Below are positions 36,842-57,534 of a stretch of 61,676 bases of DNA, piece by piece. Source of the stretch: Solirubrobacterales bacterium (lineage in GTDB: Bacteria; Actinomycetota; Thermoleophilia; Solirubrobacterales; 70-9). The stretch lies in NCBI GenBank assembly GCA_009379895.1, contig WHSW01000001.1:15064-76739 (forward strand). Reading direction: 5' to 3'. Position 1 is the first letter of the stretch. Each line of letters opens with the position of its first letter. A program made the translations under genes and the position numbers. The notes below the pieces were generated by a model. It did not search any database. It was given only the letters and a program-made list of their open reading frames with translations, and had not been told where the DNA came from.

Positions 36842-38416
36842 CTAGCCGGCCCGCTCCGCCTCGCGCAGCTCGATCCGGCGGATCTTGCCGGTCAGGGTCT
36901 TGGGCAGCTCGTCGGTGAACTCGATCCGCCGCGGGTAGGCGTAGGCGGACAGCCGCTCGCGCACGAAGCCCTTGATCTCGTCGGCGAGCTCGTCGGAGGG
37001 CTCGGCGCCCTCGGCGAGGACGATGAACGCCTTGACCACGTTGCCCCGCACCTCGTCGGGCGAGGCGACAGCCGCGGCCTCGCGCACCGCCGGGTGCTCG
37101 ATGCAGGCCGACTCGACCTCGAACGGGCCGATCCGGTAGCCGGCCGCGATGATCACGTCGTCGGCGCGCCCGGCGTACCAGTAGTAGCCGTCGGGATCCT
37201 CGCTGGCGGCGTCCTTGCTGTGAAACCACTCGCCGCCGAAGGCCTCCTCGCCGGCCTCCGGCTGGTTCCAGTAGCCGAGCGGGTAATGCGGGTTCGAGCG
37301 CGCCCGCAGGCAGATCTCGCCGCGCTCCCCCGCCGCGACCGGCCGCTCGTCCTCGTCGAGGATCGCCACGTCCCAGCCGGGCATCGGCCGTCCCATCGAC
37401 CCCTCGCGCACCTCCATGAACGGGTAGTTCCCGCACAGCGGATAGGACTCGGTCAGCCCGTAGTAGTCGAGCACCGTGACCCCGTACTGGTCGCGAAACC
37501 AGCGGATCGCCTCGGGGTTGAGCGGCTCGCCCGCGCTGCACACGATCCGCAGCTCCTGCGGGTAGCGCCGTCCGGCATCCTCGACCGCCATCATCGCCCG
37601 CATCGCGGTCGGGGTCGTGAACACGTTGGTGACCCGGTGGCGGGAGAGGAAGTCGAGCTGCTCGGCGGGATCGAAGCCGCCCTCGCGCTGGTAGACGCAC
37701 TGGGTGGCACCGAGGCGCCACGGGCCCAGCAGCGGCGCGATGCCGGCGGCCCAGGCCCATTCGCCCATCCCGTGGAAGCGCTCGGAATCGCGGATCTCGT
37801 GGCAGTAGACGAACTCCTCGTGGGCGAGGACGTAGCGGTGGGCGTGGACGATGCCCTTCGCCGCGCCGGTCGTGCCCGAGGTGTAGTAGAGCTGCGCGGG
37901 GTCGTCGGCCGCCGTGTCCTCGCAGATGTGGTCGGCCGGCCGGCCGGCGAGCAGAGCGTCGTCGACGACCAGCAGCGCGTCGACCAGCGAGGCGTCGAAG
38001 CGCCGTGCGTTGGCGGCGTCGGTGACCAGCACCTTCGGGGTCGAGTCGGTGAGCCGGTGGCGGATTCCCTCGTCGCCGTAGAGGACCGACATCGAGAGCA
38101 GGATCGCGCCCAGCTTCCAGGTGCCGAAGAAGATCGCGGCCGCCTCGGGCGTGGGGGGCAGGACGACGGCTACCCGATCGCCCCGCTCGATCCCCTGCTC
38201 GCGCAGCATGTGCGCCGCTCGGTTGGAGAGGTCCTGAAGCTCCCCCCAGTCGAGCTCGCGGCTCGCCCCGTCATGGCGCTCCCAGACCATCGCCGGCTTG
38301 GCGCGCGGGTGCTTGTCGCAGACGTCGGCGGCGATGTTGTAGCGGTCGGGGACGCGCCACTCGTGCTCCGAGCGCGCCTGCTCGTAGGACTCGATCCGCA
38401 GATCCTCGGTGGTCAT
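36842..38416 (-). CDS. Acyl-CoA synthetase (AMP-forming, acetyl/medium-chain type)
   Basis: A 524-residue adenylating enzyme. It shows the P-loop-like LYYTSGTTGAAKGIVHAH (A3), DYYGLTES (A5), a GYRIGPFEVESACIEHP hinge region (A8) and the catalytic Lys in PKTLTGKIRRIEL (A10). It activates a carboxylic acid with ATP and joins it to CoA; the sequence resembles medium-chain/benzoate-type ligases more than acetate-specific ones, which needs a pocket comparison. Start ATG 38416 has GGAAGGAGAG upstream; a TAACGT box (38450-38445) gives a leader of about 30 bases. The longer open frame upstream is antisense noise. Confidence 0.9.
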   Translation of the reverse strand: MTTEDLRIESYEQARSEHEWRVPDRYNIAADVCDKHPRAKPAMVWERHDGASRELDWGELQDLSNRAAHMLREQGIERGDRVAVVLPPTPEAAAIFFGTWKLGAILLSMSVLYGDEGIRHRLTDSTPKVLVTDAANARRFDASLVDALLVVDDALLAGRPADHICEDTAADDPAQLYYTSGTTGAAKGIVHAHRYVLAHEEFVYCHEIRDSERFHGMGEWAWAAGIAPLLGPWRLGATQCVYQREGGFDPAEQLDFLSRHRVTNVFTTPTAMRAMMAVEDAGRRYPQELRIVCSAGEPLNPEAIRWFRDQYGVTVLDYYGLTESYPLCGNYPFMEVREGSMGRPMPGWDVAILDEDERPVAAGERGEICLRARSNPHYPLGYWNQPEAGEEAFGGEWFHSKDAASEDPDGYYWYAGRADDVIIAAGYRIGPFEVESACIEHPAVREAAAVASPDEVRGNVVKAFIVLAEGAEPSDELADEIKGFVRERLSAYAYPRRIEFTDELPKTLTGKIRRIELREAERAG

Positions 38417-38595
38417 CGACTCTCCTTCCCGCGACGTCGCACGGACGTTACCCGGCCGCGCTCGACGCCAAGCGGACCCGCCCTGAGGCGGCCGCACCGC
38501 TCCACGCGCCGGCGCGCCCTGATGCGGTGCGCCGCCGCGGGCGCCCCCGGGGCCACCGCCGCGAGCACCCCCGACGGTGGGGCGAATCAGCCGTC

Positions 38596-38637
38596 GCTGA
38601 AGGCTTTGTCGGGTATGGAGTGCCCAATCCCTCAGCC
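38596..38637. repeat. Left 42-base hairpin direct repeat flanking the AbiEi/DUF559 gene
   Basis: It begins GCTGAAGGCTTTGTCG and ends CCCAATCCCTCAGCC. It is identical at 35 of 42 positions to the repeat at 39576-39617. The ends are complementary (GCTGAAGG against CCCTCAGC, one mismatch), so it can fold as a hairpin. The ATG of the gene (38615) lies inside it. Confidence 0.8.
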
Positions 38638-39580
38638 GTTGGCCCGTGAGCTGTGGGCGCTTGCGGCGCTGCAGCACGGCGTCGTGACCAGGCAGCAGCT
38701 GCTCGAGCTCGGCTTCAGCTCGCAGGCGATCAAGCGCCGGATCGCCAACGGGCGCCTGCACCCGATCTGGCGGGGCGTTTACGCCGTCGGCCGACCCCGG
38801 CTGACCCGCCACGGCCGCTGGCTCGCCGCCGTGCTCAGCTGCGGGCCCGACGCCGTGCTCAGCCACGAGAGCGCCGCGGCGCTGTGGGGCATCCGCGCCG
38901 GGTGGCGACTCGAGGGCGGGCGGTCCGAAGCGGCGCCGAGGTGGCCGCACGGCGCCGCGGTCGACGTCTCCGTGCCCGCCCACGTGGATCGACGTCGCCC
39001 CGGCATTCGAGTGCATCGTCGGGTGGCCCTGGGACCCGGGCTGGTCGGTCGCCGCGATGGCATCCCGGTCACGACGCCCGCCCTCACGCTCGTGGATCTG
39101 GCCACCCGCCTTCCGCGCGATCAGCTGGAGGCGGCGGTCAACGAGGCGGACCGGCGGGACCTGATCGACCCCGAAAGGCTGCGTTCGGTGCTCGACGAGA
39201 TGCCGCGCTGGCCCGGCGCCCGAGCGCTACGCGAGATGCTCGACCGCCGCACGTTCACGCTCACCGACTCACAGCTCGAACGACACTTCCTGCCCATCGC
39301 CCGTGCGGCGGGCCTTCCCCCACCGCGGACGGGCGAGCGGGTGAACGGGTTCAAGGTCGACTTTCACTGGCCCGAGCTGGGACTCGTCGTCGAGACCGAC
39401 GGCCTGCGCTATCACCGGACCCCGGCCGAGCAGGCCCGGGACCGGCTGCGCGACCAAGCGCACACCGCGGCCGGGCTGACCCAGTTGCGCTTCACGCACG
39501 CGCAGGTCCGCTTCGAGCCGGCGCACGTCCGGGCCACGCTGGTCGCGACCGCGCGCCGCCTCCGCAACCGCGATCGCTGA
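38615..39580 (+). CDS. AbiEi-like antitoxin/DUF559 endonuclease-fold protein in a repeat-flanked cassette
   Basis: A 321-residue protein. Residues about 8-65 form a winged helix of the type IV antitoxin AbiEi kind (ARELWALAALQHGVVTRQQL, then RRIANGRLHPIWRGVYAVG). The last 110 residues have the DUF559/VSR-like nuclease pattern: HFLPIARAAGLPPP, FKVDFHWPELGLVVETDGLRYHRTPAEQ (with the D-x-[18]-E-x-D core) and DRLRDQAHTAAGLTQLRFT. No partner toxin is adjacent. The ATG is inside the left 42-base repeat and the TGA opens the right one, so the gene exactly fills the space between them. Such solitary genes are common in actinobacteria; their function (defence, mobility or gene control) is not established. 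Confidence 0.8.
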   Translation: MECPIPQPLARELWALAALQHGVVTRQQLLELGFSSQAIKRRIANGRLHPIWRGVYAVGRPRLTRHGRWLAAVLSCGPDAVLSHESAAALWGIRAGWRLEGGRSEAAPRWPHGAAVDVSVPAHVDRRRPGIRVHRRVALGPGLVGRRDGIPVTTPALTLVDLATRLPRDQLEAAVNEADRRDLIDPERLRSVLDEMPRWPGARALREMLDRRTFTLTDSQLERHFLPIARAAGLPPPRTGERVNGFKVDFHWPELGLVVETDGLRYHRTPAEQARDRLRDQAHTAAGLTQLRFTHAQVRFEPAHVRATLVATARRLRNRDR

Positions 39581-39617
39581 AGGGTTAGTCGCGTATGCCG
39601 TACCCAATCCTTCAGCC
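39576..39617. repeat. Right 42-base hairpin direct repeat flanking the AbiEi/DUF559 gene
   Basis: It begins GCTGAAGGGTTAGTCG and ends CCCAATCCTTCAGCC, with a perfect 8-bp terminal stem (GCTGAAGG/CCTTCAGC). It includes the stop codon of the gene. Its inner ATG would encode MPYPILQP, parallel to MECPIPQP in the left copy. Confidence 0.8.
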
Positions 39618-39689: not shown

Positions 39690-40484
39690 ATGCTGAGAGG
39701 CTATTCAGCGCCGCGATCCCCGGAGGGCCGCTCGAGCCTCGTCCCGGCTCCGCCCTGGCACTACGTGGGCACGATGCTGGTCGTCGAGTACTGGGCCGAG
39801 CCCGCCGCCGCGGCCGCCGTCTTGCCGCCGCCGCTCGAGCCGCACCCCGACGGCGGTCGGGCCGCCGCGATGTTCATCGACTGGCAGTCGTGCACCGACG
39901 GGCGCGACCAGCTCCTCGACCCGTCCCGCGCGCAGTACAAGGAGTTCTTCGTCACCGTCAACGCGCTCCACGGCGGCGAGGAGGTCGCCTACTGCCCCTA
40001 CATCTGGGTCGATCGCGACTTCGCCCTCGCGCGGGGCTGGATCCAGGGCTTTCCGAAGAAGCTCGGCTCGATCTGGATCACGCGCAGCTTCGGCCTCGAG
40101 ACGCGGGCCGACCCCGGTGTCGGCCCCGGCTCCGCCTACGGCGGCACCTGCGCCGCCTATGAGCGCCGGCTCGCGCAGGCGACGGTGACGCTCGAGCGCC
40201 GCAGCCAATCCGGCCCGACCCACAACGACCCTCCGATCGTCAACGTGCGCCACTTCCCGCGCCTGACCAAGGGACAGCACGACGACCCCGCCGTGCACGA
40301 GCTCGTCCGCTCGCGCGCCTACGACCGCAGCGCCTCGGAGATCTGGGAGGGGGCCGCGACCCTCGAGCTCTTCGACGCGCCCGGCGAGGAGGTCGCCGCG
40401 CTCGCCCCGGCCCGGCTCGGCAAGGGCTATCGCTTCACGATCGGCTACTCGGTCGACGACCTCGAGACGCTCGCCGAGCTGTGA
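39690..40484 (+). CDS. Acetoacetate decarboxylase-family protein
   Basis: A 264-residue protein of the ADC superfamily. The Schiff-base lysine region is intact as WIQGFPKKLGSIW (Lys123/Lys124), with the preceding Glu/Arg-rich strand VAYCPYIWVDRDFALARG. True ADC removes CO2 from acetoacetate, but many actinobacterial homologues catalyse aldol, hydration or decarboxylation steps on other keto acids. Start ATG 39690 has an AGAGAG leader and directly follows an ATAATGTA box. An aldehyde dehydrogenase lies 55 bases downstream on the same strand. The location suggests a role late in a ring-cleavage or side-chain pathway. Confidence 0.85.
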   Translation: MLRGYSAPRSPEGRSSLVPAPPWHYVGTMLVVEYWAEPAAAAAVLPPPLEPHPDGGRAAAMFIDWQSCTDGRDQLLDPSRAQYKEFFVTVNALHGGEEVAYCPYIWVDRDFALARGWIQGFPKKLGSIWITRSFGLETRADPGVGPGSAYGGTCAAYERRLAQATVTLERRSQSGPTHNDPPIVNVRHFPRLTKGQHDDPAVHELVRSRAYDRSASEIWEGAATLELFDAPGEEVAALAPARLGKGYRFTIGYSVDDLETLAEL

Positions 40485-57192: not shown

Positions 57193-57276
57193 GCGGCTGT
57201 GGTGAAATTGGCAAACACGCGGCGTTCAGGTCGCCGTGGGCGCAAGCCCTTGGAGGTTCGAGTCCTCTCAGCCGCA
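57193..57276 (+). tRNA. tRNA-Leu (anticodon CAG)
   Basis: Acceptor stem GCGGCTG/CAGCCGC with discriminator A (57276). D-arm TGGTGAAATTGGCA, anticodon stem CGGCG/CGCCG around loop TTCAGGT (CAG, reads CUG), a long variable arm (GGGCGCAAGCCC) that marks a class II tRNA, and T-arm GAGGTTCGAGTCCTC. The CCA is not encoded. A TACATT box (57175-57180) lies 12 bases upstream as a possible -10. Confidence 0.95.
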
Positions 57277-57461: not shown

Positions 57462-57534
57462 GCCGCTATCGTCTAGGGGACTAGGACGCCGCCCTCTCAC
57501 GGCGGAAACCCGGGTTCGAATCCCGGTAGCGGTG
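57462..57534 (+). tRNA. tRNA-Glu (anticodon CTC)
   Basis: Acceptor GCCGCTA/TAGCGGT (G-U at the first pair), anticodon stem CCGCC/GGCGG with loop CTCTCAC (CTC, reads GAG), T-arm CCGGGTTCGAATCCCGG, discriminator G. CCA is not encoded. TAGAAT at 57445-57450 is a good -10 placed 11 bases upstream. The 185 bases between the two tRNAs hold no gene that I can see. Confidence 0.95.

Follow-up and report, generated by a model that had tools for sequence, protein, structure and literature searches.

When a gene is bounded at both ends by a short repeat, the repeats may be the ends of a mobile cassette or sites through which the gene controls itself, and we asked which of these applies to a locus of a Solirubrobacterales bacterium. 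The window, i.e. the whole stretch of DNA that was analysed, comprises 61,676 nt of contig WHSW01000001.1 (GenBank assembly GCA_009379895.1). A first-pass annotation, made from the letters alone, had proposed that an AbiEi/DUF559 gene fills a repeat-gene-repeat unit that is either mobile or self-controlling. Such a unit is borne out, in that the layout recurs elsewhere and an empty site of a solo palindrome was found; the two halves of the proposal, moving and self-controlling, do not yet separate.

Recomputation reproduced the identity reported for the repeat pair, 35 of 42 bases (38596-38637 and 39576-39617). The copies lie 980 bases apart around a 321-codon frame and are the strongest repeat within the 2.4-kb region examined. 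Each unit is an imperfect palindrome of ~41 nt in which two arms of ~19-20 nt enclose a short centre (Table 1). As described earlier, the start codon lies in the left repeat and the stop codon opens the right one: the left centre, 38616, is the middle base of ATG 38615-38617, and TGA 39578-39580 falls at the beginning of the right copy, which has a central ATG of its own (39595-39597). Both copies had also been thought able to fold into hairpins. In single-stranded DNA folding this held for the right copy (z -3.2) and failed for the left, which hardly folds (z -0.71), so that "palindrome" or "dyad site" fits the two better than "hairpin". A model built from the repeat gives E ~1e-12 for each of the two window copies, which were among its training members, and matches further copies in the genome.

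Table 1 Features of the window
Feature	Position	Strand	Remark
Left palindrome, 41 nt	38596..38636		Start codon at centre; 42-nt repeat extends to 38637
Right palindrome, 41 nt	39576..39616		Starts within the stop codon of the gene; 35/42 identical to left over 42 nt
AbiEi-DUF559 gene, 321 aa	38615..39580	+	Product a predicted site-specific nuclease
AbiEi_4 winged-helix domain	38657..38788	+	Residues 15-58
AbiEi C-terminal-type domain	38864..39244	+	Residues 84-210; AbiEi_1 match weak
DUF559 / EDxHD-type nuclease domain	39263..39568	+	Residues 217-318
AMP-binding acyl ligase gene, neighbour	36845..38419	-	Outside the element
Acetoacetate decarboxylase-like gene, neighbour	39690..40484	+	Outside the element
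Two tRNA genes (Rfam match)	57193-57276, 57462-57534		Unrelated to the palindrome finding

The window gene is flanked by the ligase and decarboxylase genes, with no AbiEii nucleotidyltransferase toxin gene next to it. Its protein had no match among plasmids, phages and viral contigs, and an Rfam search of the window returned the two tRNAs and no other match. The acetoacetate decarboxylase gene was located at seven places in six other genomes, and the DUF559 gene is absent beside all seven. Since the ligase is absent beside them too, these places provide no clean empty allele of the window cassette.

The gene identity given by the first-pass annotation was confirmed by Pfam, in which AbiEi_4 (E 1.9e-8) and DUF559 (E 6.2e-6) both pass the cut-off. 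An AlphaFold model of the protein (mean pLDDT 89.6) was compared with known structures using VIA and Foldseek, and the nuclease domain was additionally compared by profile search. In the model, residues 8-215 resemble the AbiEi antitoxin 6y8q (VIA Z 12.1, rmsd 3.9, 184 residues aligned) and also Mycobacterium tuberculosis Rv2827c, and for residues 217-318 the matches are 3hrl and the homing endonuclease I-Bth0305I (3r3p; Z 13.4 each), followed by Vsr (Z 11.1). The I-Bth0305I profile matches the nuclease domain at E 6e-4. The acidic residues are conserved: across 53 homologues E222, D249, E260 and H267 show no variation, and D262 and D276 almost none. The window protein is thus predicted to be an AbiEi module fused to an I-Bth0305I-like catalytic domain.

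Sequence comparison ties genes of this family to palindromes of their own, and many relatives carry theirs at both ends. Among loci fetched with the palindrome, seven further sites hold homologues of the window protein that start in or beside a palindrome, and at two of these (G224 and G174) the homologue sits between two palindromes; such genes occur in other genera, with other palindromes. For the converse test, 110 homologous genes from 16 genomes were fetched by protein alone; they came for the most part from genomes in which palindromes had already been found, so the rates that follow are not a frequency for Thermoleophilia at large. With a threshold of 14 of 19 pairs, a palindrome was found around the gene start in 68 of 110 genes versus 43 of 546 background windows, and with a threshold of 16 pairs in 33/110 versus 0/546. 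An in-frame start codon lay within 4 nt of the palindrome centre in 46 of 81 cases (control 67/405). The start region was repeated at the gene end (at least 30 of 43 positions) in 31 of the 110 genes, the window gene included, and in neither control (mismatched loci 0/110, gene interiors 0/110). The repeat-gene-repeat layout thus does recur at other loci, with different repeats, a recurrence that had been named at the outset as support; 18 of the 31 right copies are direct and 13 inverted. Paralogues within one genome carry different palindromes, and four genes of the host genome, including that of the window, show the start/end pair. Most homologues are 31-65% identical, and shared function is therefore assumed.

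Palindromes are also dispersed without a gene. Searching the host genome (G000; 4.09 Mb, 610 contigs) with the repeat, as the first-pass annotation had recommended, revealed about five more gene-less copies, which places the repeat beyond this locus: two lie on contigs C499 and C599, a 48-nt form lies on C601, and weaker copies lie on C299 and C14. A weak copy in this genome (L021, 1501-1541) is situated between ybeY and era, and its terminal GCTGA supplies the TGA stop of ybeY, as the right copy does for the window gene. The order and class were scanned with models built from palindrome copies, and 41-42-nt palindromes of the same kind were found in ~30 genomes. Their sequence differs by lineage, for example GCTGAAGCATTTTGG..CCAAAATGCTTCAGC in G063, AGGGAGCCGTTTGGG..CCCAAACGGCTCCCT in G141 and AATGAAGGTTCAGGG..CCTGAACCTTCATT in G174. 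In G141, three copies identical over 41 nt lie in unrelated flanks, one of them beside a gene. The type GCTGTTCCTTNNGG..CCNNAAGGAACAGC (hereafter the GCTGTTCC type) has 53, 28, 7 and 7 copies in four congeneric species and is absent from 228 other genomes of the order; a reversed-pattern control gave 0. Genes starting in a palindrome of this type were found in three of the four carrier species (G059, G061 and G063), the fourth, G060, lying outside the protein search. In two congeners with zero GCTGTTCC-type copies (G058 and G018), related genes start in GCGTGGTTCC or ACGTGGTTCC palindromes.

The solo palindromes are mostly intergenic and sometimes lie inside genes. By crude gene calls, 62 intergenic sites separate tandem genes in 29 cases, convergent genes in 22 and divergent genes in 11; the same crudeness makes the "coding" class of solo sites (30) unreliable. 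No constant flanking tetranucleotide, such as a CGTC or GTAG tag, was observed around 108 copies: CGTC, the commonest, occupies 13 of 216 sides and adjoins just 11 of the 108 copies. The palindrome copies sampled are not followed by a T-run.

Several observations concern how individual solo types relate to genes and to other repeats. Many GCTGAAGGG solos occur in G059, and no gene with a GCTGAAGGG palindrome was among the genes found there, which implies either loss of such a gene or movement of these solos by some other factor. Many palindromes of G059 (L022, L040, L041, L069, L113-L122) lie within a longer conserved repeat, e.g. AAACCCACG-palindrome-GGGCGCC or GCTCC-palindrome-GGAAGGGAC, and some copies may accordingly have spread within a larger unit. 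Genes tied to abundant solos are decayed, with an in-frame TGA or partial deletion, at L083 and L144 (G224) and L130 (G063), which suggests that solos outlive the gene. The palindrome model also matched a ~33-bp inverted repeat in L050 (G445) and L059 (G391), consisting of CCCTTAGACAGGGTT-GTTGGGGGGTTGGGG and following bases plus the complement, which is probably a different long-hairpin repeat. A similar 43-nt palindrome, GCTGATGGATTGG...CCAATCCATCAGC, lies on a Verrucomicrobia contig (L018, 7446-7488) with no homologous gene within the 8 kb of that locus, and may be a chance match.

Comparison of congeners provided an empty site. A solo palindrome of G018 (L034) lies inside a putative EcfT-like reading frame, so named from its sequence alone, and the orthologue in G061 (L088) is shorter by exactly 42 nt. 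The solo adds 14 codons, encoding residues SAEGSWGRSRHKSF, and the filled and empty forms differ by no net duplication; insertion in G018 is the simpler explanation, deletion in G061 a less likely one. This lone empty site came from a looser scan; a strict scan of the loci yielded no more. The empty-site check put forward at the outset has thus succeeded for a solo palindrome, at exact element length and between congeneric species, and not for the window cassette itself; no empty allele of any whole cassette was found.

The two arms of the palindromes change symmetrically. Within the GCTGTTCC type, 115 of the 130 cells at positions that the search pattern did not fix are complementary, as compared with a shuffled mean of 82.6 and maximum of 101 (2000 shuffles), and such retained pairing at inner positions free to vary may hint at a fold-back intermediate. 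At one orthologous locus in three congeners the palindrome reads GCTGAAG..CTTCAGC in G061 and G063 and ACCGGTG..CACCGGT in G059, in nearly the same flank. At an orthologous locus represented by L086, L130 and L174, the upstream flank is ~87-90% identical and the gene ~70-78%, with the palindrome of one species being of another type, as if gene and palindrome changed together and faster than their surroundings. In a comparison of palindrome copies 12 of 18 pairs had changed on both sides, a count biased in favour of pairing, as a paired model had been used to find the copies. Stem covariation was at first read as RNA structure. That reading is countered by the mismatches of gene-linked palindromes on the sense strand, where G.T (26) is rarer than A.C (53). 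What has been maintained is therefore not an mRNA hairpin, and the arm symmetry is better matched by a dyad in the DNA or by a copying process acting on DNA.

The arrangement extends beyond Thermoleophilia. In the cultured host Tsukamurella tyrosinosolvens NCTC13231, a DUF559 gene, annotated on the record named plasmid 12, lies between GTGCGGTGGAT..ATCCACCGCA-type palindromes, one 83 nt before the annotated start and the other 43 nt after the stop. Two solo copies lie on other records, one of which (L274) fills a 58-nt gap between convergent genes. On Streptomyces plasmids, AbiEi genes that lack the nuclease have an adjacent AbiEii toxin gene and a palindrome just upstream.

The reading we favour, and judge on sequence grounds to be moderately probable, is that the window carries a small selfish element in its autonomous form, with the AbiEi-DUF559 nuclease gene set between two palindromes, and that this nuclease drives dispersal. 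The N-terminal AbiEi module would bind the palindrome as a pair of monomers, each on one arm, in the manner of AbiEi antitoxins on their operators, and the C-terminal EDxHD/Vsr-type domain would nick or cut there. Such an action would repress the gene, the operator covering its start codon, and would also place palindrome copies elsewhere, either alone or with the gene; the solo palindromes would be its non-autonomous counterpart, comparable to REPs in relation to RAYT genes. Binding of the protein to its own palindrome is highly probable, and cleavage at that site may be presumed from the domain; that this nuclease, rather than another factor, spreads the palindromes we consider somewhat better than an even bet. 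Against a mobile element, a right copy is detectable in only 31 of the 110 genes, and vertical retention at orthologous loci is also compatible with a regulatory gene kept by the host.

The main rival is autoregulation alone: the palindromes would serve purely as operators through which the AbiEi part represses its gene, the 3' and dispersed copies would be regulatory and the nuclease would have another purpose, e.g. defence. AbiEi proteins do autoregulate via inverted repeats, the palindrome covers the start codon, and the Streptomyces AbiEi genes without DUF559 also have a nearby palindrome, just upstream. We nevertheless regard operators alone as unlikely, since they leave unexplained the right copies at 3' ends, the solos between convergent genes (22 of the 62 intergenic sites, and L274), those inside coding sequence, and a type with 53 copies in one genome and none in most relatives. 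Alternatively, the palindromes could be REPs spread by an HUH RAYT transposase encoded elsewhere, with the DUF559 gene merely using one as an operator. Their size, intergenic position near 3' ends and lineage-specific amplification agree with REPs, but each gene has its own palindrome type, found at both ends in 31 cases, which is the arrangement of a RAYT with its REP, and the constant GTAG tag is absent from the ends. This explanation is distinctly improbable.

Covarying stems would also be expected of an mRNA hairpin acting as a terminator or in translation control. The mismatch counts run opposite to selection on such a hairpin, the sampled copies have no T-run after them and the left window copy folds poorly as DNA, leaving this a very slight possibility. 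Least credible of all is the alternative raised in the first-pass annotation, in which a tandem paralogue was lost and the right repeat is what is left of its 5' end. It derives from the MPYPILQP that the right copy encodes in the same phase, yet the ATG belongs to the palindrome itself and a coding remnant is unnecessary. As solos lie far from any such gene and the right copies occur in both orientations (13 of 31 inverted), we reject it.

Returning to the selfish element proposed above, its layout, which recurs at dozens of related genes, suggests a type of small mobile DNA that carries its own enzyme and has not been described before. There is a little better than an even chance, in our estimation, that it represents a second class of REPtron, one without an HUH enzyme, in which EDxHD/Vsr-type nucleases guided by AbiEi have made their operator palindrome the mobile unit. 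Each gene would have a rapidly changing palindrome of its own, and the class would extend across Thermoleophilia and at least to Mycobacteriales. To our knowledge, the spread of palindromic repeats in bacterial genomes is understood only where an HUH RAYT partner exists, and here a palindrome family is paired with a candidate enzyme of unrelated fold. A literature search, with most subscription papers and preprints outside its coverage, returned no paper that connects dispersed palindromes with DUF559 or AbiEi. What would set the element apart is its non-homologous enzyme together with a palindrome of operator-like origin; if every palindrome-plus-enzyme pair counts as a REPtron, it would be a variant of one. 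A possible role is also suggested for many proteins annotated as "AbiEi antitoxin / DUF559". The many natural palindrome-protein pairs and a cultured host make a direct test of this new mobilisation route possible.

Among known systems, the REPtron (REP plus RAYT) shares short, dispersed, intergenic palindromes, often near 3' ends, with lineage-specific amplification, and a dedicated nuclease gene flanked by palindromes that are dispersed in the genome. The window enzyme differs in being an AbiEi_4 plus DUF559 protein of EDxHD/Vsr type rather than an HUH/Y1 tyrosine transposase, the flanks of the 108 copies carry no constant GTAG end tag, the start codon lies at the palindrome centre, and the palindrome differs per gene within a genome. 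CGTC-tagged REPs and Rickettsia palindromic elements are likewise dispersed palindromes, some of them in frame within coding sequence. A dedicated enzyme is not known for either, the CGTC class being described as without a dedicated transposase (PMC3733652), and CGTC is found beside only a small minority of the copies studied here. Integron attC cassettes have core sites GTTRRRY/RYYYAAC, in contrast to the window ends, which by inspection read GCTGAAGG...CCTTCAGC.

The EDxHD homing endonuclease I-Bth0305I appears, from the predicted fold and conserved residues, to share the catalytic fold and acidic active site, and the window gene is also selfish-looking. It lacks an intron or conserved target gene, however, and its DNA-binding part is AbiEi; moreover, a homing gene splits one site, whereas the window gene is flanked by two whole palindromes. 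AbiE type IV toxin-antitoxin systems share the AbiEi antitoxin fold and an inverted-repeat operator at the promoter, but the window gene has no AbiEii toxin neighbour and carries an extra nuclease domain, and its palindrome is also found 3' of the gene and dispersed. The operator of Streptococcus agalactiae AbiEi, located in its own promoter, consists of two 23-bp inverted repeats with a 3-bp spacing and is bound by two AbiEi monomers (PMC7319586); the window palindromes are similar to it in size and geometry.
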